A DNA stretch of 33,981 bases from the NCBI GenBank assembly GCA_024711405.1, contig JANJSZ010000027.1, positions 1-33,981 on the forward strand. The letters are read 5' to 3'. The notes beneath the pieces were generated by a model, which saw only the letters and a list, made by a program, of their open reading frames with translations, searched no databases and had not been told where the DNA came from. The DNA is from Acidovorax sp. Its GTDB lineage: Bacteria; Pseudomonadota; Gammaproteobacteria; Burkholderiales; Burkholderiaceae_C. Numbering within the stretch: the first letter of the stretch is position 1; each line of letters opens with the position of its first letter. This document shows, one piece after another, positions 16,634 to 27,851 of the stretch. The position numbers and the translations under genes were made by a program.

Positions 16634-17440
16634 TTACACCAGGGCCTTGCGAACGCGCGCAGACACCAGGTCGATGGCACTCACGGTCACCACAATGATG
16701 AGCATCACCGCACAGGTTTCGGCATATTGAAAGCCACGGATGATTTCCCACAGCACCACGCCAATACCCCCGGCGCCCACCATGCCCACCACCGACGCGG
16801 AACGCACGTTGGCCTCGAAGCGGTAGAGCGTGAAGGAAATCCACAGTGGCATCACCTGCGGAATCACGCCATAGATGATTTCATGCAAGGCACTCGCCCC
16901 GGTCGAGCGGATGCCTTCCACGGGCTGGGGGTCGATGGCCTCCACCGCCTCGGAAAACAGCTTGGCCAGCGTGCCCGAGGTATGGATCCACAGCGCCAGC
17001 ACGCCCGCGAAAGGCCCCAGGCCCACGGCCACCACGAACAGCATGGCAAAGACCATTTCGTTGATGGCGCGGAAGGTATCGAGCACGCGGCGCATCGGCT
17101 GGTACACCCACCACGGCACGATGTTGGACGAGGCCAGCAACGCCAGAGGCACGGCGGTCAGCACTGCCAGGGCCGTGCCCCACAGCGCGATCTGCAAGGT
17201 GACGAGCATCTCCTGCACATACAGCTGCCACTGCGCAAAGTTGGGTGGAAAGAACTCTGCCGCATACCGTGCCATGTTGCCCGAGTCCTGCAACAGGTCC
17301 AGAGGGCGCATGTCGGCGCCCTTCCATGAAGCGGCCAGCAGCACCAGAAAAATGCCCCAGGACAGGTACCAGCCCAGGCTGCGCTTGGGCGCGGTGGCCT
17401 GGGCCAGGTGGGTGAGCGAAGGGGTCAGGGCAGAAGACAT
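16634..17440 (-). CDS. phnE: Phosphonate ABC transporter permease PhnE
   Basis: [11 protein letters not shown]... with [35 protein letters not shown] and [25 protein letters not shown]; located downstream of phnC and phnD. Confidence 0.93.
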
Positions 17441-17461
17441 GGATATACCTGAAATCACCGG

Positions 17462-17498
17462 GGCGGTGGGCAACAACTGCTGTTGTCAGCCCACCGCC
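17462..17498 (-). other. Stable stem-loop between phnD and phnE
   Basis: Perfect 10-bp stem GGCGGTGGGC/GCCCACCGCC with an inner CAACA/TGTTG stem; no T run. Confidence 0.8.
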
Positions 17499-17517
17499 GG
17501 CACAAGAGTGGAACGCT

Positions 17518-18462
17518 TTACTTCAGGGACGCCAGCTGCTGGTCGATCTCGGCCAGGCGGGTCTTCTTCTCGGTCTCGGCCAGTGTGCTGTCGGCTTCGA
17601 TCTTGTTGCGCTTGCCGAACAGGTCGAGCTGGCGGATCGGGGTGAGTTGCGCATTGCTCGACGGCTTGAAGCCCGACAGCTTGGAGATCTTCATCACGAC
17701 CTCCTTCTCGCGGGGGGCGGTCTTGGCGTAGTTGTAGAAGAAGTTCTTGATCTTCGTCTTGGTGGCCTCGGGCATGTCCTTGTGCATCACGAGGGGATCG
17801 AGCGCGATGAGGGGCGAGGTCCAGACGATCTTGATGTCCTTGAACTTCTCGGGCTGCCGTTCCTGGATCTTGCCGAGGTTTTCGCTGTTGTTGGTGGCCA
17901 CATCAACCTGCTTGTTGGCCACGGCCAGGGCATTGGTCTCATGGTTGGCGCTGCGCACGATCTTGAAATGCGTCTTCACGTCGACCTTGTTCCGTGCGAA
18001 GGCGTAGTAGCCCGGCACCAGGAAGCCCGAGGTGGAGTTGGGATCACCGTTGCCGAAGCTCAGCGACTTGCTGTTCTTGAGCACGTCATCCAGCGTGGCC
18101 AGGGGGCTGTCCTTGTGCACGATGAGGTGCGAGTAGTAGCCCTGCGTGCCATCGGCGTTGACCATTTGGGCAAACACTTCGCCGTTGGCGCGGTCCACGG
18201 CTTCCATGGCCGACTTGTTGCCCAGCCAGGCCACCTGCACCTTGTTGAAACGCATGCCTTCGATGATGCCGGCATAGTCGGGCGCAAAGAACGCCTTGAT
18301 CTTGAAGCCGGTCTGCTGGGCCATGTCGTCCAGCAGGGGCTGCCAGTCGGCCTTGAGGTTCTGCGTGGCCTCGGTGGAGATGATGCCGAAGTTGATGTCC
18401 TGGGCAAAGGCCCCCGTCATGCCCAGGCCCAGGGCCATGGCTGCGCACAGTTTCTTGATCAT
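17518..18462 (-). CDS. phnD: Phosphonate ABC transporter substrate-binding protein PhnD
   Basis: MIKKLCAAMALGLGMTGAFAQDINFGIISTEATQNLKADWQPLLDDMAQQTGFKIKAFFAPDYAGIIEGMRFNKVQVAWLGNKSAMEAVDRANGEVFAQ, a typical PhnD. Confidence 0.95.
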   Translation of the reverse strand: MIKKLCAAMALGLGMTGAFAQDINFGIISTEATQNLKADWQPLLDDMAQQTGFKIKAFFAPDYAGIIEGMRFNKVQVAWLGNKSAMEAVDRANGEVFAQMVNADGTQGYYSHLIVHKDSPLATLDDVLKNSKSLSFGNGDPNSTSGFLVPGYYAFARNKVDVKTHFKIVRSANHETNALAVANKQVDVATNNSENLGKIQERQPEKFKDIKIVWTSPLIALDPLVMHKDMPEATKTKIKNFFYNYAKTAPREKEVVMKISKLSGFKPSSNAQLTPIRQLDLFGKRNKIEADSTLAETEKKTRLAEIDQQLASLK

Positions 18463-18499
18463 GAAAACTCCCGTGAATGGAAAGAGCGAAGGAAAGGGA

Positions 18500-19360
18500 T
18501 CAGGCCGCCTGGGCCAGGGGTGGCATCCAGCCGGCAACCGGCGAAACGGCAGGCGCGGCAACCGAAGGCAAAGGGTTCGCACCCGCCAGGATCTCGTCGG
18601 CCTGCACGCCATAGAGCTCACGCAGCAGCCCGGGGGTGAGGGCAGCGGACGGGCCGTCGTACACCACGCGGCCCTGGTGCAGTGCCACCACGCGGGGGCA
18701 GTATTTGATGGCCACATCCACCTGGTGCAGCGACACGATGACCGTGCTGCCGTCTTCGCGGTTGATGCGCGCCAGGATGTCCATGACCTTGCGCGAAGAC
18801 TCGGGGTCTAGCGAGGCGATGGGCTCGTCGGCCAGCACCACCTTGGCGCCCTGCACCAGGGTGCGGGCAATGGCGGCCCGCTGCTGCTGCCCGCCCGACA
18901 GGGTGGAGGCGCGCTGGGCGTGGCAGTCGGCAATGCCGACACGGGCCAGCGCCTCCAGCGCCAACGCGCGTTCGTGCGGCCTGAACAGCCGCAGCCAGCC
19001 GCGCCAGCGCGGCGTGCGGTGCAACAGGCCCACCAGCACATTCATCAGCACCGGCAAACGGTCCACCAGGTTGAACTGCTGGAACACGAAACCCACCTGC
19101 GCCCGCACCTGGCGAATGTCGCGGTGGATGCGACCACCCTGCTGCACGCAGCGGCCGTCGACCTCGATCAGTGAATCGCTGGCGCCATCGGCCACCACCA
19201 GCCCGGCCACGTGGCGCAGCAGGGTCGATTTGCCAGAACCGGATGCACCGATCAGGGCCACCATCTCGCCACGCTGCACGGTCAGATGGATGTCGCGCAA
19301 GGCGTGCTTGCCATTGGCAAAATGCTTGTTCAGTTGCTGTATGCGAAGCGCTATAGACAT
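18500..19360 (-). CDS. phnC: Phosphonate ABC transporter ATP-binding protein PhnC
   Basis: Walker [17 protein letters not shown], signature [17 protein letters not shown], Walker [17 protein letters not shown]; PhnC-like [24 protein letters not shown]. Confidence 0.94.
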
Positions 19361-19375
19361 CACATGGCCCTCAAG

Positions 19376-19455: not shown

Positions 19456-20610
19456 TCAGAGCACCCGGATGCCCTCGCGCCACACCCCGCGCACCACGGC
19501 CTGCAGCGATCCATCCGACAGTTCGGCCATGTGCACCTGGACCAGGTCCGCGCGCAGCCCCGGCGCCAGTTCGCCCCGGTCGGCCATGCCGGCCGAGCGG
19601 GCCGGGTTGCGCGTGACGGTGGCCACGGCCTGCGGCAGGGGAAGGATGCCGTCGTGCACCAGGCGCATCACCGCACTCAGCAGGCTGCCGGGCACGTAGT
19701 CGGACGAAAGAATGTCCAGCAGCCCCTGGCACGCCAGATCGGCCGCCGCCACATTGCCCGAGTGCGAGCCACCGCGCACCACGTTGGGGCCGCCCATGAC
19801 GGTGAGCAGGCCACGCTCATGCGCAGCGCGTGCAGCTGCCAGCGTGGTCGGGAACTCCGACATTGCAGCCCCCTCGGCATGGGCCTGCGCCACATGCGCC
19901 ACCGTGGTGTCGTCGTGGCTTGCCAGCGAGATGCCGTGCGTGCGGCAGTAATCCACGAAGTAGGCGCGGTGCGGCTCGGCATATTGCGCCTGCAGCGCAG
20001 CGGCATGCTCTACCTGGCGCTCGAACTTCTCGGCGCTCCAGCCCTTCTTGCCGGTGTAGTAGGTGCGCGCCTGTTCGATGTCTTCCCACTGGCGCTGGCC
20101 GGGCGTATGGTCCATCAGCGAGATCAGCGACAGGCGTGGGTGCCCGTGGAAGGGCTCGAACAGCGCGATGGTGTTGGGTGCGGGCAGTTCGCAGCGCACA
20201 TGCAGGTGGTGGTCGGCCCGCAGCAGATTGCGCTCGGTGCAGGTGTCGATGGTGTCGAGCACGCGGTTCCAGGCGCTGCCGCGCAGACTGTCCGCATCCG
20301 CCTCGCCCACCCCCAGGGCATCCAGCACCGTGGTGATGCCGGCGGCGGCGATCTCGGCGTCGTGCGCGAGCAGCGCGGGCATCTCGGCCCATTGCACCTT
20401 GGGCCGGGGCATGAGGTGGCGCTCGAAGTTGTCGGTGTGCACCTCCACCAGGCCCGGCATCAGGTAGTCGCCACCCAGGTCAAGACCTTCCAATGCCGAG
20501 GTGGCTCCGGTGTCCATCGACGCGATGCGCCCAGCATCTGCCCGCAAAGCGCCGTGCACCACCTCGCCCGGCAGCACCAGACGGGCGTTCTTGAAGACCA
20601 TGGCGCTCAT
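19456..20610 (-). CDS. phnM: Alpha-D-ribose 1-methylphosphonate 5-triphosphate diphosphatase PhnM
   Basis: Amidohydrolase with PhnM hallmark [26 protein letters not shown] and SLASHDDTT. Confidence 0.95.
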
Positions 20611-21326
20611 GCCGCCGTCCCCCGGAAATCGCCCACATTCACGCGGCGCGTGGCCACGGCGGCACCCACATGGGCGTCGTGGAAGATGCCCACCAAGGCG
20701 GCTCCGCGCGCCACCGCCTCGCCAATCAGGGCAATCACGGTTTCGGTGTTGGCCGCGTCCAGCGATGCCGTGGGCTCATCGAGCAGCAGCAGCGGCTTGG
20801 GCTTGATCATGTTGCGCGCGATGTTGATGCGCTGCTGCTCGCCGCCCGAAAAGGTGGCGGGCGGCAGGTGCCACAGGCGCTCGGGAATGCGCAGGCGCTC
20901 CAGCCACTGGCGTGCCTGGTCGCGCGCCGCCTCCAGCGCGGCAATGTCATCGTGGGCATCCTCGGCCAACGGTTCGGCCACCACGTCCAGCGCCGACACC
21001 CGGGGAATCACGCGCAGGAACTGGCTGACATACCCCATGGTGTCGCGGCGCAGCTGCACCAGCGCGCGGGGCGTGGCCTGGGTGACATCCACCGCCGCGC
21101 CGCCGGGCGGCTGCACCGTGATGCTGCCGGCATTGGCGCGGTAGTTCGCGTAGATCATCTTGAGCAGCGTGCTCTTGCCCATGCCCGAGGGGCCGTCGAG
21201 CACCACGCACTCGCCCGGGCTGACGGCCAGGTTCACATGGCACAGCACGGACAGTTCAATGCCGTTCCGGTGGTGCAGGGTGAAGCGCTTGGCCACCCCT
21301 TTCATCTGGAGAATGGGAGGGTTCAT
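20607..21326 (-). CDS. phnL: Phosphonate C-P lyase system protein PhnL (ABC ATPase-like)
   Basis: LDGPSGMGKSTLLKMIYANY, SGGEQQRINIARNMI, LLLLDEPTASLDAANTE; located between phnK and phnM. Confidence 0.94.
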   Translation of the reverse strand: MNPPILQMKGVAKRFTLHHRNGIELSVLCHVNLAVSPGECVVLDGPSGMGKSTLLKMIYANYRANAGSITVQPPGGAAVDVTQATPRALVQLRRDTMGYVSQFLRVIPRVSALDVVAEPLAEDAHDDIAALEAARDQARQWLERLRIPERLWHLPPATFSGGEQQRINIARNMIKPKPLLLLDEPTASLDAANTETVIALIGEAVARGAALVGIFHDAHVGAAVATRRVNVGDFRGTAA

Positions 21327-22111
21327 GGCTGCAATACCGAAGAAACGAGAAGCTGGGTATAGGGATGCTGCGGGTCGTCGAGCACCTGGTCGGTGAGGCC
21401 CGACTCGACCACGCGGCCGCGCTGCATCACCACCATGCGGTGGGCCAGCAGCCGCGCCACCGCCAGGTCGTGCGTGACGATGATGGCGGCCAGCTGCATC
21501 TGCCGGGTGAGCTGGCGCAACATGTCCAGCAGGCGCGCCTGCACCGACACATCCAGGCCCGAGGTGGGCTCGTCCATGAACACCAGGCGGGGCTGCGTGA
21601 CCAGGTTGCGGGCAATCTGCAGGCGCTGGCGCATGCCTCCCGAGAAGGTGCGAGGCGCGTCGTCGATGCGCGCCGGATCAATCTCCACGCGCTGCAGCCA
21701 GTCGGCAGCGGTGCTGCGCAGGCAGCCATAGTGGCGCTCGCCCAGACCCATCAGGCGTTCGCCCACGTTGGCGCCGGCCGATACATCCATGCGCAGGCCG
21801 TCCGCTGCGTTCTGGTGCACGAAGCCCCAATCGGTGCGGGCCAGCAGGCGCTGCTGGGCTTCGGTCATGGCATAGATGTCCTGCAGCGCGCCACTGCGCT
21901 GGCGGAACTGCACCGTGCCTTCGTCCGGGGCGCTGCGTGCCGCAATGGCGTTGAGCAGCGTGGACTTGCCGGAGCCGGACTCGCCGACCACGGCGAGCAC
22001 CTCGCCAGGCCACAGGTCAAAGGACGCGCCCTGCAGCGCCACACGGTCGCCATAGCGCTTGCTGACATTGCGCACGCTCAGCAGCGGCGCAGCAGGTTCT
22101 GGGTGGTTCAT
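21323..22111 (-). CDS. phnK: Phosphonate C-P lyase system protein PhnK (ABC ATPase-like)
   Basis: [57 protein letters not shown]. Confidence 0.94.
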   Translation of the reverse strand: MNHPEPAAPLLSVRNVSKRYGDRVALQGASFDLWPGEVLAVVGESGSGKSTLLNAIAARSAPDEGTVQFRQRSGALQDIYAMTEAQQRLLARTDWGFVHQNAADGLRMDVSAGANVGERLMGLGERHYGCLRSTAADWLQRVEIDPARIDDAPRTFSGGMRQRLQIARNLVTQPRLVFMDEPTSGLDVSVQARLLDMLRQLTRQMQLAAIIVTHDLAVARLLAHRMVVMQRGRVVESGLTDQVLDDPQHPYTQLLVSSVLQP

Positions 22112-22569
22112 GTGAGGGTCTCGACAACAAAGCTCAGGCCGTGCTGCGCAAAGCCCAGGGATTCATAAAACGCATGGGCGCCCGCGCGGCGGGCGTTGGA
22201 CGAGAGCGCGAGCTTGTAGCAGCCCGCATCGCGCGCCTGCTGCATGGCGTGGGCCATCATCTGGCGGCCAATGCCACGGCCCTGCTGGTCCTGTGCCACC
22301 ACCACGTCTTCGACGATGGCCGAGGACGCCCCCCGGTGCGCCAGGTTGTGCATGATGAGCAGCGCATACGTGCCCACCACCGCGCCGTGCGCCGCTGTGT
22401 CGCAGGCCACCCACAGCCGGTAGCTGGGGTAGCGGGCAAACTGGGCCCATACGGCCTGGGCTTCTTCCAGGGTCAGCACGTCAGCGGGGCTGTCTTCAAT
22501 GGCGGCATACAGGGCCAGCACGTTGTCCAGGTCTGCACGCTGGGCTTCACGAAGGTGCACGCTGCTCAT
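22108..22569 (-). CDS. GNAT-family N-acetyltransferase within the phn operon (PhnO-like role possible)
   Basis: Acetyl-CoA-binding loop VVVAQDQQGRGIGRQMMAHAMQQARDAGCYKLALSSNARRAGAHAFYESLGF; ATGA overlaps with phnJ and phnK. Confidence 0.88.
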   Translation of the reverse strand: MSSVHLREAQRADLDNVLALYAAIEDSPADVLTLEEAQAVWAQFARYPSYRLWVACDTAAHGAVVGTYALLIMHNLAHRGASSAIVEDVVVAQDQQGRGIGRQMMAHAMQQARDAGCYKLALSSNARRAGAHAFYESLGFAQHGLSFVVETLT

Positions 22570-23498
22570 GCTGCACCGCCTTGTGCCTGCGCGGAATCGG
22601 CTTGCCGTGCCTGGCGCTCCTGGCAATAGTCGGAGTCCGAGCACACATGCATGCGGGTGCCCCGATCGTCGGTGATCACCTCGTCCAGAAAGCTGTCGGT
22701 CGCACCGCACAGCGCGCAGGCCGCATCCCAGCGCTGCACCTCGAAGGGGTGGTCGTCAAAGCCCAGGCTTTCCACCCGCGTATAGGGTGGCACGGCGTAG
22801 ATGCGCTTTTCGCGGCCGGCCCCGAACAGCTGCAGGGCCGGGCTCATGTGCAGCTTGGGGTTGTCGAACTTCGGGATCGGCGAGGGCGACATCACGTAGC
22901 GGCCATTCACCAGCACCGGGTAGTCGTAGGTGGTCGCGATGTGCCCGTGGCGCGCGATGTCCTCGTAGAGCTTCACGTGCATCAGGCCGTATTCGGCCAG
23001 GCCATGCAGGGTACGGGTCTCGGTTTCGCGCGGTTCCAGCCGCTGCATGGGCTCGGGCACGGGCACCTGGTAGACGAGCACCTGGCCTTCGGTCAGCGGA
23101 GTCTCCGGAATGCGGTGGCGCGTCTGGATCAGCGTGGCCTCGACGGTGCGCGTGGTGGTGGCCACCCCCGTGGTGCGTTCGAAGAACCGGCGGATGTTCA
23201 CGGCGTTGACCGTGTCGTCCGAGCCCTGGTCGATGACCTTGAGGCGATCCTGCGGCCCGATGATGGCCGCCGTCACCTGGATGCCGCCGGTGCCCCAGCC
23301 ATAGGGCAGCGGCATCTCGCGCGATCCGAAGGGCACCTGGTAGCCGGGAATGGCCACGGCCTTGAGGATGGCGCGGCGGATCATGCGCTTGGTGCGCTCG
23401 TCCAGGTAGGCGAAGTTGAAGTGTCCGTGGGCCTGGGCCGCCTCGGCGGGCAGTCCCATCACGGCGGGCATACAGTCGGGGTGATGGGGTGCATTCAT
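22566..23498 (-). CDS. phnJ: Alpha-D-ribose 1-methylphosphonate 5-phosphate C-P lyase PhnJ
   Basis: CALC-x21-C-x5-C matches the PhnJ CX2CX21CX5C Fe-S cysteine motif; FAYLDERTKRMIRRAILKAVAIPGYQVPFGSREMPLPYGWGTGG. Confidence 0.97.
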   Translation of the reverse strand: MNAPHHPDCMPAVMGLPAEAAQAHGHFNFAYLDERTKRMIRRAILKAVAIPGYQVPFGSREMPLPYGWGTGGIQVTAAIIGPQDRLKVIDQGSDDTVNAVNIRRFFERTTGVATTTRTVEATLIQTRHRIPETPLTEGQVLVYQVPVPEPMQRLEPRETETRTLHGLAEYGLMHVKLYEDIARHGHIATTYDYPVLVNGRYVMSPSPIPKFDNPKLHMSPALQLFGAGREKRIYAVPPYTRVESLGFDDHPFEVQRWDAACALCGATDSFLDEVITDDRGTRMHVCSDSDYCQERQARQADSAQAQGGAA

Positions 23499-24607
23499 GC
23501 ATCGTCTCCTTGCAGGGAATCGGCAACGGCCCCGCTGGCGGCGGCGCGCATCTTGCGCACCAGCTCCAGCTCTGCCTGGAAATCCACGTAGTGCGGCAGC
23601 TTCAGGTGCTGCACGAAGCCCGAGGCCTCCAGGCTGTCGCTGTGCGAGAGCACGAATTCCTGCATCTGCGCGGGCGAATTGATGGCCTCGCCCAGCTCGT
23701 CGGCCCGCAGCGCGCGGTCCACCAGGCTCATGGCCATGGCCTTGCGTTCGCTGTGGCCAAACGCCAGCCCGTAGCCCCGCGTGAACTGCGGCGGGCTGGT
23801 CTTGCTGCCGGCGAACTGATTCACCATTTCGCACTCGGTGATTTCGATATCGCCCAGGGAGATCGCAAAGCCCAGCTCCTCGGGTTCGATCTCCACCGCC
23901 ACCGAACCCAGGCGCACCTCGCCCACGAAAGGATGCGAGTGCGCATAGCCGCGCTGGGTGGAATACGCCATGGCCAGCAAAAAGCCTTCGTCACCGCGCG
24001 CCAGGTTCTGCAGCCGCGTGGCGCGGTCGGCCGGGAAACGCAGGGGCTCGCGCGTCAGGTCGCTGGGCATCGGATCCCCCGGCGGGGCGGGCCGGGTTTC
24101 CATGAGACCCTCCTGGTTCAGCAGGTCCACCACGCGCGGGCTGGCCGCAGGCTCTGGCACCACCGGCGCACCGCTGGCCGGACCATCCATCGCCGCGCCC
24201 TGTGCCAGCAGCGTGAAATCCAGCAGCCGCTGGGTGTAGTCATAGGTCGGGCCCAGCACTTGCCCGCCCGGCAGGTCCTTGAAGGTGGCGGAAATGCGGC
24301 GGTCGAGCGCCATGGCGGCGGTGTCCAGCGGACAGGTGGTGCCCAGGCGTGGCAGCGTCGCGCGGTAGGCCCGCAGCAGGAAGATGGCCTCGACCAGATC
24401 GCCCGACGCCTGCTTGATGGCCAGTGCCGCCAGCTCGGGGTCGTACACCGACCCTTCGGTCATCACGCGGTCCACGGCCAGCTTGAGCTGCTGGCGGATC
24501 TGGGCCACCGACAGTTCAGGCTGTGCGGGGTCGCCCCGGCGCTGCTCGGCCAGCAGGCGATAGCTGTTGAGGATGGCGGCTTCTCCGCCCTTGACGGCTA
24601 CGTACAT
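23495..24607 (-). CDS. phnI: Carbon-phosphorus lyase complex subunit PhnI
   Basis: MYVAVKGGEAAILNSYRLLAEQRRG, YSTQRGYAHSHPFVGEVRLG, YGLAFGHSERKAMAMSLVDRAL. Confidence 0.96.
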   Translation of the reverse strand: MYVAVKGGEAAILNSYRLLAEQRRGDPAQPELSVAQIRQQLKLAVDRVMTEGSVYDPELAALAIKQASGDLVEAIFLLRAYRATLPRLGTTCPLDTAAMALDRRISATFKDLPGGQVLGPTYDYTQRLLDFTLLAQGAAMDGPASGAPVVPEPAASPRVVDLLNQEGLMETRPAPPGDPMPSDLTREPLRFPADRATRLQNLARGDEGFLLAMAYSTQRGYAHSHPFVGEVRLGSVAVEIEPEELGFAISLGDIEITECEMVNQFAGSKTSPPQFTRGYGLAFGHSERKAMAMSLVDRALRADELGEAINSPAQMQEFVLSHSDSLEASGFVQHLKLPHYVDFQAELELVRKMRAAASGAVADSLQGDDA

Positions 24608-25236
24608 GCTCGGGCCTCCACGGCGGACGCGATGCGGGTGGTGCGGGGCAGGCCCGCAAGCTGGTGCGTCGTGGCCAGCAGCACATCCACGCCGCGCGGA
24701 AAGGCGGCATGGTTGTCGGCCCACTGGCGTTCCAAGTCGGCCGGAAGGCCCCCCACCCGCAGCTGCTGCACGCCCCGGATGCCCGGGCCGCTCAGGCACC
24801 ACATGCCCTCTGCCGGTTTGCCGACGGTCAGGGCCTCCACATCGATGAAGCAGGTGGCCGATTGCTCGGGGTAGGCGTCGCTGCCCTGCGCAAAGGTGGG
24901 CAGGGGTGGCAGGGCATCGCCCTGTGCGACCCAGGCGAAGCGGGCCAGCTCTGGCCTCGCCACCAGCTGGCAACCGGTGTGAAAGCGCAGCCACAGGCCC
25001 GCATTGCTGGCCGCCAGGCGGGGCGACAGCCACAGCGTGCAATCGCTGTCGAGCAGGGCCAGCAAGGCGGCGGCCGAAGCGCCATGGCCTGCCGCAGGCA
25101 ACTCGGCATCGTGGTCCAGGGGCACCGGCTGGCCCGGTTGCGACAGCGCCTGCAAGACGGCACGGAACACGGCCTGGCTGCCCAGGGCTTCGCTGGAGAA
25201 TCCCGCGCCCAGCGCGGACAACGCGTGCTCGCTCAT
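24598..25236 (-). CDS. phnH: Phosphonate C-P lyase system protein PhnH
   Basis: SSEALGSQAVFRAVLQALSQPGQPV, LSGPGIRGVQQLRV, FPRGVDVLLAT; between phnG and phnI. Confidence 0.94.
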   Translation of the reverse strand: MSEHALSALGAGFSSEALGSQAVFRAVLQALSQPGQPVPLDHDAELPAAGHGASAAALLALLDSDCTLWLSPRLAASNAGLWLRFHTGCQLVARPELARFAWVAQGDALPPLPTFAQGSDAYPEQSATCFIDVEALTVGKPAEGMWCLSGPGIRGVQQLRVGGLPADLERQWADNHAAFPRGVDVLLATTHQLAGLPRTTRIASAVEARACT

Positions 25237-25739
25237 TCCGTGTCCTCCTCGCCATCGCCTGCGCTTTCGCGGGCCACCGTGAAGAAATCGACCTTGGTGC
25301 TGGCGGCACGCGCCCTTCGGCGCGCCTGCAGCTCCACCAGATGCCTGCGCACCGGTGCCAGCAGGGCGGCGTCCAGCGCCGACTGCTGTGCGGGGTCCTG
25401 CAGCAAGGCATCGGCCAGCGCGGCCAGATGCACCTGGCGCTGCGAACGCCCCAGCACATAGGCCACGCCCACGGTGGCTTCACCACCGCCTGCCTCCACG
25501 CGCAATGCGCAGCGGGTGACCGTGATCTCTCCCAGGTTGAAGCGCTCGCCCGTGCCACCGGCGCGGCCCTGCACCATCATCAGCCCGGTTTCGGGGGCAC
25601 GCAGCCAGCGTGCGGGTCGGCCCACGTGTTCGCGCAACACGGGCTCCAGCAGCTCGACCGGCGCACGGGCCAGCAAGGCCATCCATTGCGCCCGCTCGGG
25701 CGGCCTGCCAGCGCCGGGGTTGTCAAAGGCTTGAAACAT
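25233..25739 (-). CDS. phnG: Phosphonate C-P lyase system protein PhnG
   Basis: RAQWMALLARAPVELLEP, LRAPETGLMMVQGRAGGTGERFNLGEITVTRCALRV, first gene of the divergent operon. Confidence 0.94.
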   Translation of the reverse strand: MFQAFDNPGAGRPPERAQWMALLARAPVELLEPVLREHVGRPARWLRAPETGLMMVQGRAGGTGERFNLGEITVTRCALRVEAGGGEATVGVAYVLGRSQRQVHLAALADALLQDPAQQSALDAALLAPVRRHLVELQARRRARAASTKVDFFTVARESAGDGEEDTE

Positions 25740-25814: not shown

Positions 25815-26579
25815 ATGACAGCCAGCACCTCCTCCACGGTTTCATCGACCCCGACACCACGCCCGGCCCGCGACAGCTTCTGGACACGCATCGCCGCCGA
25901 ACTGGCCGAGGCCATCGGCAACGGCATTTACCCACCAGGCCAGCGCCTGCCCTCGGAGCACGCGCTCGCCGAACAGTTCGGCGTGAACCGCCACACCATC
26001 CGCCGCTCGCTGGCCAGCCTGTGCCACCAGGGCCTGGTGCGCATCACGCAAGGCAGCGGCACTTACGTGGAAGACTTTGCGGTGGACCTGGTGCTGGGCA
26101 AGCGCACGCGGCACCAACAAGGCCTGGCGCAGGCCGGCCTGCGCGGCAGCCTGGAGGTGCTGCACGAACAGGTGGTGCCTGCCACGGCGGCACTGGCCAG
26201 GGCCCTGCAGGTGCCGGTGCGCAGCAAGGTGCTGGTGCTGCGCGTGATGGGCAACGCCGAAGGCCAGCCGCTGCATGTGAGCGAGCGTTATTTCCCCCTG
26301 CCCCGCTTCGAAGGGCTGGCCGCCGTGGTGCGGGAGACCGGCTCCATCACGGCAGGCTTCGCCGCCCATGGCGTGGCCGACTACACCCGCCGCGAAAGCC
26401 GCATCACCGCCGATCTGCCGGAGACGCAGGTGGCCACCGCACTGCGCCAGCCCGCCAGCCGCCCCGTGCTGCAGGTGGAGAGCCTGAATGTGGACCCCGC
26501 CGGCGTCCCCATCGAATGGGCCCGCGCCTGGTTCGCGGGAGACCGCGTCAAACTGACCATTGCACACCATGAGCACTGA
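25815..26579 (+). CDS. phnF: GntR/HutC-family phosphonate regulator PhnF
   Basis: GntR HTH (IGNGIYPPGQRLPSEHALAEQFGVNRHTIRRSLASLCHQGLVRITQGSGTYV) and UTRA domain; divergent from phnG. Confidence 0.94.
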   Translation: MTASTSSTVSSTPTPRPARDSFWTRIAAELAEAIGNGIYPPGQRLPSEHALAEQFGVNRHTIRRSLASLCHQGLVRITQGSGTYVEDFAVDLVLGKRTRHQQGLAQAGLRGSLEVLHEQVVPATAALARALQVPVRSKVLVLRVMGNAEGQPLHVSERYFPLPRFEGLAAVVRETGSITAGFAAHGVADYTRRESRITADLPETQVATALRQPASRPVLQVESLNVDPAGVPIEWARAWFAGDRVKLTIAHHEH

Positions 26580-27291
26580 AACCGCCCCCGCGCACCGCTA
26601 CGCGGTGTATTTCGCCCCGGCCCCCGGCACCCTGGGCTGGCTGGCCGGCAGCCACTGGCTGGGCCGCTGCGCTGCGCAGCTGCAACCCCTGCCCCAGCTG
26701 GACATCGTGGGCGTAGCCCAGGAAGACCTGTACCGCCTGACGGCAGCGCCCCGGCGTTACGGCTGGCACGCCACGCTGAAAGCGCCCTTCATGCTGGCGC
26801 CCGGCGTGGACTGGTTGACGCTGCACCAGGCCACACAAGCCGTAGCCCGCCACCTGCAGCCCTTCACCCTGCCGCCCCTGCAGGTCGAACGCCTCGACGA
26901 TTTTCTGGCGCTGGTGCCGATGGCAGCGCCCGCCACGCAAGCCGCCCTCCACGAAGCCGCCGCCGCCTGCGTGACGCAGCTGCAGCCGCTGGCGGCGCCC
27001 TTGTCGCCCGTCGAGCTGGCACGCCGACGGGCGGGCGGACTGACGCCCCGGCAGGAAGCGCTGCTGCTGCGCTGGGGCTATCCGTTCGTGCTGGAAGAGT
27101 TTCGCTTTCACCTGTCGCTGACCGGCCCGCTCGACACCGTGGCCGCCAGCACCCAGGCCCTGGTGCAGGATGCGGCGGAACAGTTCTTTGCCGATCTGCC
27201 CCCCCTGAGCTTCAACAGCCTGGCCCTGTTCGCCGAACCCACCCCGGGCGCCGATTTCGTGCTGCTGGACCACCTGGAGATGGGGGCATGA
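26569..27291 (+). CDS. DUF1045 phosphonate-operon protein with 2H phosphoesterase-like motifs
   Basis: RYAVYFAPAPGTLGWLAGSHWLGRC; two H-x-[ST]-L motifs: WHATLKAPF and FHLSLTGPL; 11-bp overlap with phnF and 4-bp overlap with phnN. Confidence 0.9.
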   Translation: MSTETAPAHRYAVYFAPAPGTLGWLAGSHWLGRCAAQLQPLPQLDIVGVAQEDLYRLTAAPRRYGWHATLKAPFMLAPGVDWLTLHQATQAVARHLQPFTLPPLQVERLDDFLALVPMAAPATQAALHEAAAACVTQLQPLAAPLSPVELARRRAGGLTPRQEALLLRWGYPFVLEEFRFHLSLTGPLDTVAASTQALVQDAAEQFFADLPPLSFNSLALFAEPTPGADFVLLDHLEMGA

Positions 27292-27851
27292 CCGGGCGGC
27301 TGGTCTATTGCATGGGACCCTCGGGCGCGGGCAAGGATTCGCTGTTCGACTGGCTGCGCCAGCACCTGCCCGAATCCAGCCGCGTGCACTGGGCGCGGCG
27401 CACCATCAGCCGCTCCGCGCCTGCCGGCGGCGAAGCACACGAAAGTGTGGATGAAAGCACCTTCAGGCAGCTGCGCGACACCCAGACCTTTGCCCTGCAC
27501 TGGGAGGCCAACGGCCTGCACTATGGGGTGCGGCACGCAGAGCTCGCACCACTGGCCAGGCACACGTGGGTGCTGGTCAACGGCTCACGCGCCTACCTGC
27601 CCCAGGCGCTGCAGCACTACCCGCAGCTGGTCGCCGTGCACATCACCGCCAGCCCCGACATGCTGCGCCAGCGCCTGACCGCCCGTGGCCGCGAAAGCGC
27701 CGAGCAGATCGAAGCGCGGGTCCGGCGGGCGGTGGCCTTCCAGCCCACGCCCCATGCCGCCGCCGTGCAGGTGCACAACGACACCACCCTGGACCACGCA
27801 GGCAGCACCCTGCTGCACGCGCTGCGGCAACTGCCTGGCTGGCCCGCCTAA
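27288..27851 (+). CDS. phnN: Ribose 1,5-bisphosphate phosphokinase PhnN
   Basis: P-loop GPSGAGKDSLFDWLR, guanylate-kinase-like; ALHWEANGLHYGV. Confidence 0.94.
   Translation: MTGRLVYCMGPSGAGKDSLFDWLRQHLPESSRVHWARRTISRSAPAGGEAHESVDESTFRQLRDTQTFALHWEANGLHYGVRHAELAPLARHTWVLVNGSRAYLPQALQHYPQLVAVHITASPDMLRQRLTARGRESAEQIEARVRRAVAFQPTPHAAAVQVHNDTTLDHAGSTLLHALRQLPGWPA

Follow-up and report, generated by a model that had tools for sequence, protein, structure and literature searches.

A PhnP-less C-P lyase cluster

The phn cluster of this Acidovorax sp. encodes PhnN and lacks PhnP, which raises the question of what acts between PhnJ and PhnN. A sequence-only reading of the window (the whole 33,981-nucleotide stretch analyzed) had assigned this step to a DUF1045 protein encoded between phnF and phnN, as a cyclic phosphodiesterase. 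We consider it highly probable that DUF1045 is a 2H-fold cyclic phosphodiesterase acting between PhnJ and PhnN in place of PhnP, an assignment supported indirectly by the predicted fold and the motifs, by the order of the genes, and by the phylogenetic profile.

The DUF1045 open reading frame, with its ATG at 26569 and its stop codon at 27289-27291, encodes 240 amino acids (Table 1). As the sequence-only reading had claimed, it overlaps the genes on both sides, by 11 nt with phnF (which ends at 26579) and by 4 nt (ATGA) with phnN (which starts at 27288), and the presence of PhnN was confirmed by a family match over the cut-off. The minus-strand phn genes (phnG to phnE) diverge from phnF. The interval between phnJ and phnK also holds a GNAT acetyltransferase gene (22108-22587, minus strand) that is weakly PhnO-like (PRK10146, 50 bits against a cut-off of 142).

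No PhnP was found in the window, in agreement with the same reading, and none was found in the 82% complete assembly, where the sole TIGR03307 match, located on a different contig, reached 20.9 bits against a cut-off of 272. Complete PhnJ-positive congeners (G086, G263, and G327) were also without PhnP. Three PHP proteins are encoded elsewhere in the genome and none in the window. The closest named genome in the DUF1045 search was Acidovorax soli DSM 25157, with 98% DUF1045 identity and an identical gene order; plasmid records, for the most part from Sinorhizobium, carry the annotation DUF1045 protein for the gene.

Table 1. Features of the phn cluster in the window and of the broken orphan DUF1045 genes at other loci
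Feature	Position	Strand	Description	Basis
DUF1045 gene (240 aa)	26569..27291	+	Predicted 2H phosphoesterase, probable 5-phosphoribosyl 1,2-cyclic phosphate phosphodiesterase	PF06299, TIGR03223, AlphaFold model
First 2H motif, WHATLKAPF	26764..26790	+	Residues 66-74, predicted catalytic H67, T69	
Second 2H motif, FHLSLTGPL	27106..27132	+	Residues 180-188, predicted catalytic H181, S183	
phnF	25815..26579	+	GntR/UTRA regulator	TIGR02325, 206 bits, over cut-off
phnN	27288..27851	+	Ribose 1,5-bisphosphokinase	TIGR02322, 195.4 bits, over cut-off
phnG	25233..25739	-		PF06754, E=2.4e-45
phnH	24598..25236	-		PF05845, E=1.6e-57
phnI	23495..24601	-	Open frame lying between phnJ and phnH, with the true start within it	Assigned from location and the conserved N-terminus MYVAVKGGEAAI
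phnJ	22608..23423	-	C-P bond-cleaving subunit; extent is that of the Pfam match	PF06007, E=4.9e-151
phnK	21323..22111	-		TIGR02323, 386 bits
phnL	20607..21326	-		TIGR02324, 307 bits
phnM	19456..20610	-	Ribose 1-alkylphosphonate 5-triphosphate diphosphatase	NF011984, 551 bits
phnC, phnD, phnE	16634..19372	-	Transporter genes	TIGR02315, TIGR03431, TIGR01097, over cut-off
Broken orphans	L039:9992-10714; L041:9968-10672; L046:9962-10642; L047:9977-10651; L064:7204-7893		Open frame kept	

Family, motifs, and predicted fold of DUF1045

The protein matched PF06299 (DUF1045) over positions 1-158 of the 159-position profile (E=4e-50, 170.3 bits against a gathering cut-off of 24.3), and TIGR03223 ("putative phosphonate metabolism protein") at full length with 236.7 bits, the curated cut-off of 248.95 being about 12 bits higher; no other family was matched in Pfam or NCBIfam. 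The two H-x-[ST]-L motifs that had been noticed from the sequence are both present, as H67-A-T69-L and H181-L-S183-L, and given these family matches the pair is not a chance occurrence. H67, T69, and H181 were invariant in an alignment of 76 homologs reaching down to 30% identity, while position 183 was S or T in every phnJ-linked copy examined. Of the distinct DUF1045 sequences whose locus also holds phnJ, all 100 kept HxS/T twice. Two other identities considered for the open reading frame were rejected: a PhnP-type protein (TIGR03307, metallo-beta-lactamase family), as no such match was obtained, and PhnPP, a cyclic phosphate hydrolase with a PHP fold, as the PHP domain (PF02811) was not matched.

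Since a sequence search of the PDB returned no relative, we compared folds. The AlphaFold model (pLDDT 96.4, pTM 0.92) had 14 Foldseek matches at E≤0.001, all of them 2H proteins except one unclassified mitoribosomal chain (6hiw_DQ). Arabidopsis CPDase (1jh6/1fsi) was the best match, and the top PDB matches also included Bacillus subtilis YjcG, human Usb1, and Escherichia coli LigT (probability 1.00, TM by target 0.5-0.66), with 11-15% sequence identity to the nearest 2H structures. The modeled structure thus matches the 2H fold, with LigT among the matches, as the comparison proposed in the sequence-only reading was meant to establish, and DUF1045 is by prediction a 2H protein; nearness in structure is not proof of substrate. 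In predicted fold and in having two HxS/T motifs, DUF1045 resembles CPDase, LigT, and Usb1, but it is about 60 residues longer and has conserved residues of its own (R10, Y64, K71, P73, R153, and GYP at 170-172). Arabidopsis CPDase opens ribose 1,2-cyclic phosphate, and both the bond and the regiochemistry match the conversion of 5-phosphoribosyl 1,2-cyclic phosphate to ribose 1,5-bisphosphate.

We infer the substrate, product, and residue roles as follows. PhnJ would supply 5-phosphoribosyl 1,2-cyclic phosphate, and DUF1045 would open its 1,2-cyclic phosphate, with H67 and H181, partnered by T69 and S183, as general acid and base at the phosphate. Cleavage of the 2-O-P bond would give ribose 1,5-bisphosphate, from which PhnN, the product of the overlapping gene, would form PRPP. 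The step proposed here for DUF1045 is catalyzed in E. coli by PhnP (TIGR03307), a metal enzyme whose metallo-beta-lactamase fold and sequence are unrelated. PhnPP uses the same cyclic intermediate as substrate (PMC8774927), but its product is ribose 5-phosphate, so that PhnN is not needed.

Earlier proposals

That DUF1045 substitutes for PhnP is an already published hypothesis, as the sequence-only reading had suspected: it was proposed in 2009 (Podzelinska 2009, as cited in PMC10574752) and restated in 2013 (PMC3840354), 2021, and 2023 (PMC8235418 and PMC10574752). According to the 2023 review, which reports a survey of 54 PhnM-containing operons, 27 had PhnP, and a 2H gene, "rcsF," occurred in 16 operons without PhnP (PMC10574752, citing Podzelinska 2009); from context, "rcsF" is probably DUF1045. 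Martinez 2013 considered that a 2H protein likely fills the role of PhnP, and reported a marine fosmid (B3_TF_MPn_2) with a 2H gene and without phnP that gave E. coli delta-phnHIJKLMNOP growth on methylphosphonate, which is complementation by a gene cluster and not a single-gene test (PMC3840354). In two other papers, DUF1045 is named a putative phosphoribosyl cyclic phosphodiesterase (PMC8235418) and rises with PhnI, PhnJ, PhnL, and PhnM under phosphorus stress in Phaeobacter (PMC10132767). The protein studied here agrees with these members of PF06299/TIGR03223 (which publications on C-P lyase call "rcsF" or a "putative phosphoribosyl cyclic phosphodiesterase") in family, neighborhood, and proposed role, and differs in nothing of substance, its TIGR03223 score below the cut-off aside. 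A full-text search for DUF1045 returned no enzyme assay of the purified protein in the accessible literature; paywalled work may hold one.

Distribution of DUF1045 and PhnP

Genomes sampled from the family of the window (401 genomes) and from its phylum (399 genomes) were searched for PhnJ and DUF1045, and every PhnJ-positive genome was searched for PhnP at the curated cut-off. DUF1045 was strongly associated with PhnJ (phylum sample: both in 63 genomes, DUF1045 only in 9, PhnJ only in 21, and none in 306). Among 126 PhnJ-positive Pseudomonadota genomes, 102 had DUF1045 only, 22 had PhnP only, 2 had neither, and none had both; in the family sample, DUF1045 was present in 41 PhnJ-positive genomes and PhnP in 4. 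This is the anti-correlation that the sequence-only reading had anticipated under replacement, and neither a PhnP elsewhere in the genome nor free co-occurrence of the two families, each of which entered into the contrary evidence that it had named, was observed. The Fisher value for this profile (1.3e-22) is left out of the argument, since the genomes are not independent of each other. By a quick method, the PhnJ tree requires no more than about two changes of enzyme type; the clusters therefore move as sets, and the evidence amounts to a few independent events rather than 126. Two pairs of congeners (G092/G390 and G122/G348) have a DUF1045-type and a PhnP-type cluster within one genus, with PhnJ in different clades, and represent exchange of whole clusters.

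PhnN was found in 59 of the 64 PhnJ- and DUF1045-positive genomes tested, which fits ribose 1,5-bisphosphate as the DUF1045 product, and of 80 named loci, 68 had phnN immediately after DUF1045. None of 136 loci had a gene fusion joining DUF1045 to another phn protein, an arrangement that would have spoken strongly for function. Two genomes, G765 (L109) and G769 (L110), have PhnJ- and PhnN-positive C-P lyase operons with neither PhnP nor DUF1045, and in the PhnJ tree they are nested within the PhnP clade; a dedicated diesterase is therefore not always encoded. No hidden diesterase was seen adjoining phnN in these operons, and of the two genes tested farther out from phnN in G765, one had a weak match to an NAD-binding family and the other matched nothing.

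DUF1045 outside C-P lyase clusters

Replacement of PhnP is an incomplete account of the family, as DUF1045 homologs occur in genomes without C-P lyase. Sixteen sampled genomes had DUF1045 without PhnJ, 14 of them with strong matches, and PhnN was absent from 13 of these 14. DUF1045 adjoins phnM in six PhnJ-less genomes (L093, L095, L102, L104, L105, and L106; about 8-11.7 kb in each), with no further C-P lyase gene alongside save phnN in L093. A nucleoside hydrolase gene adjoins DUF1045 in L104. PhnM was over the cut-off in seven PhnJ-less DUF1045 genomes and PhnM-like, at about 268 bits, in three, and many PhnM H/D/E residues were invariant across the PhnJ-less pairs and the C-P lyase-linked copies. 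These pairs may be remnants, or may represent a separate pathway. Two distant proteins from PhnJ-less genomes (L107 and L108; G606 and G681), with weak DUF1045 scores and HxT twice, are possibly another 2H subfamily.

Eight Acidovorax loci have DUF1045 at the same site (EamA, AsnC, DUF1045, ArsC) with no recognized phn gene around it, and PhnJ is absent from the genomes of all eight and of a ninth orphan, Variovorax L079. The 2H motif is broken in five of the eight (Table 1), by S183P in all five and in some also by H67Q or H67R, by T69A, T69V, or T69P, or by H181Y; four of the five have in-frame deletions around residues 152-176. In the tree, four broken orphans group in a single clade (support 100/98) that lies among lineages carrying phn genes, and the fifth, L046, is a separate event. 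Pairwise omega in the dead clade was about 0.24 for residues 8-60, 0.5-0.8 for residues 111-185, and 0.10 for residues 186-240, against 0.10-0.15 throughout in live relatives, and the C-terminal third of the four-member clade is as constrained as in working copies. The active-site half is therefore relaxed and the rest still selected, which shows that the protein can persist without a catalytic role. Set against the broken orphans, retention of the motif in all phnJ-linked copies points to a catalytic role in connection with C-P lyase.

The PhnJ-less and catalytically dead copies were not found in print and are new here. We tentatively suggest, with appreciable doubt, that DUF1045 is wider than C-P lyase: a PhnM-DUF1045 module may process another ribose cyclic phosphate in PhnJ-less, mostly PhnN-less bacteria, and the orphan in phn-less Acidovorax lineages, now catalytically dead, may have a new selected role.

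Alternative roles

DUF1045 might open the same ring on the other side, giving ribose 2,5-bisphosphate, or act on an earlier triphosphorylated intermediate, and would then be a side-product or repair enzyme and not a PhnP equivalent. Its pairing with phnM, not phnN, in the six PhnJ-less loci and the scarcity of PhnN among PhnJ-less genomes would suit such a role. We regard it as unlikely, however: PhnN, which needs ribose 1,5-bisphosphate, accompanies DUF1045 in most PhnJ-positive genomes, no other candidate for the ribose 1,5-bisphosphate step was found, and known 2H enzymes retain the 1''-phosphate.

Less probable still is a general role for DUF1045 as a phosphodiesterase of cyclic nucleotides or RNA ends, located in phn operons by chance, with an unlinked enzyme supplying the PhnP function. 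Although 2H enzymes act on many substrates, orphan copies without phn genes exist, and the genome encodes a weak PhnP-like metallo-beta-lactamase match and three PHP proteins elsewhere, a chance location agrees poorly with the strong PhnJ association, the exclusion with PhnP, the overlaps with phnN and phnF, and the complementation of a phnP-less host by the fosmid. That DUF1045 serves the phn cluster without catalysis, as an accessory or regulatory protein, might be imagined from its persistence without catalytic residues in PhnJ-less Acidovorax but seems very improbable, given that every phnJ-linked copy examined retains both HxS/T motifs and that residues 111-185 are constrained in phnJ-linked copies (omega 0.15) where the dead clade is relaxed.

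Implications

If DUF1045 does act as a cyclic phosphodiesterase in place of PhnP, the pathway would end with a 2H enzyme in most C-P lyase clusters of proteobacteria, among them those that underlie aerobic marine methane release and the use of glyphosate. Surveys that take phnP as a marker of the complete pathway would then undercount it, and one annotated pathway gap would reduce to a single enzyme assay.
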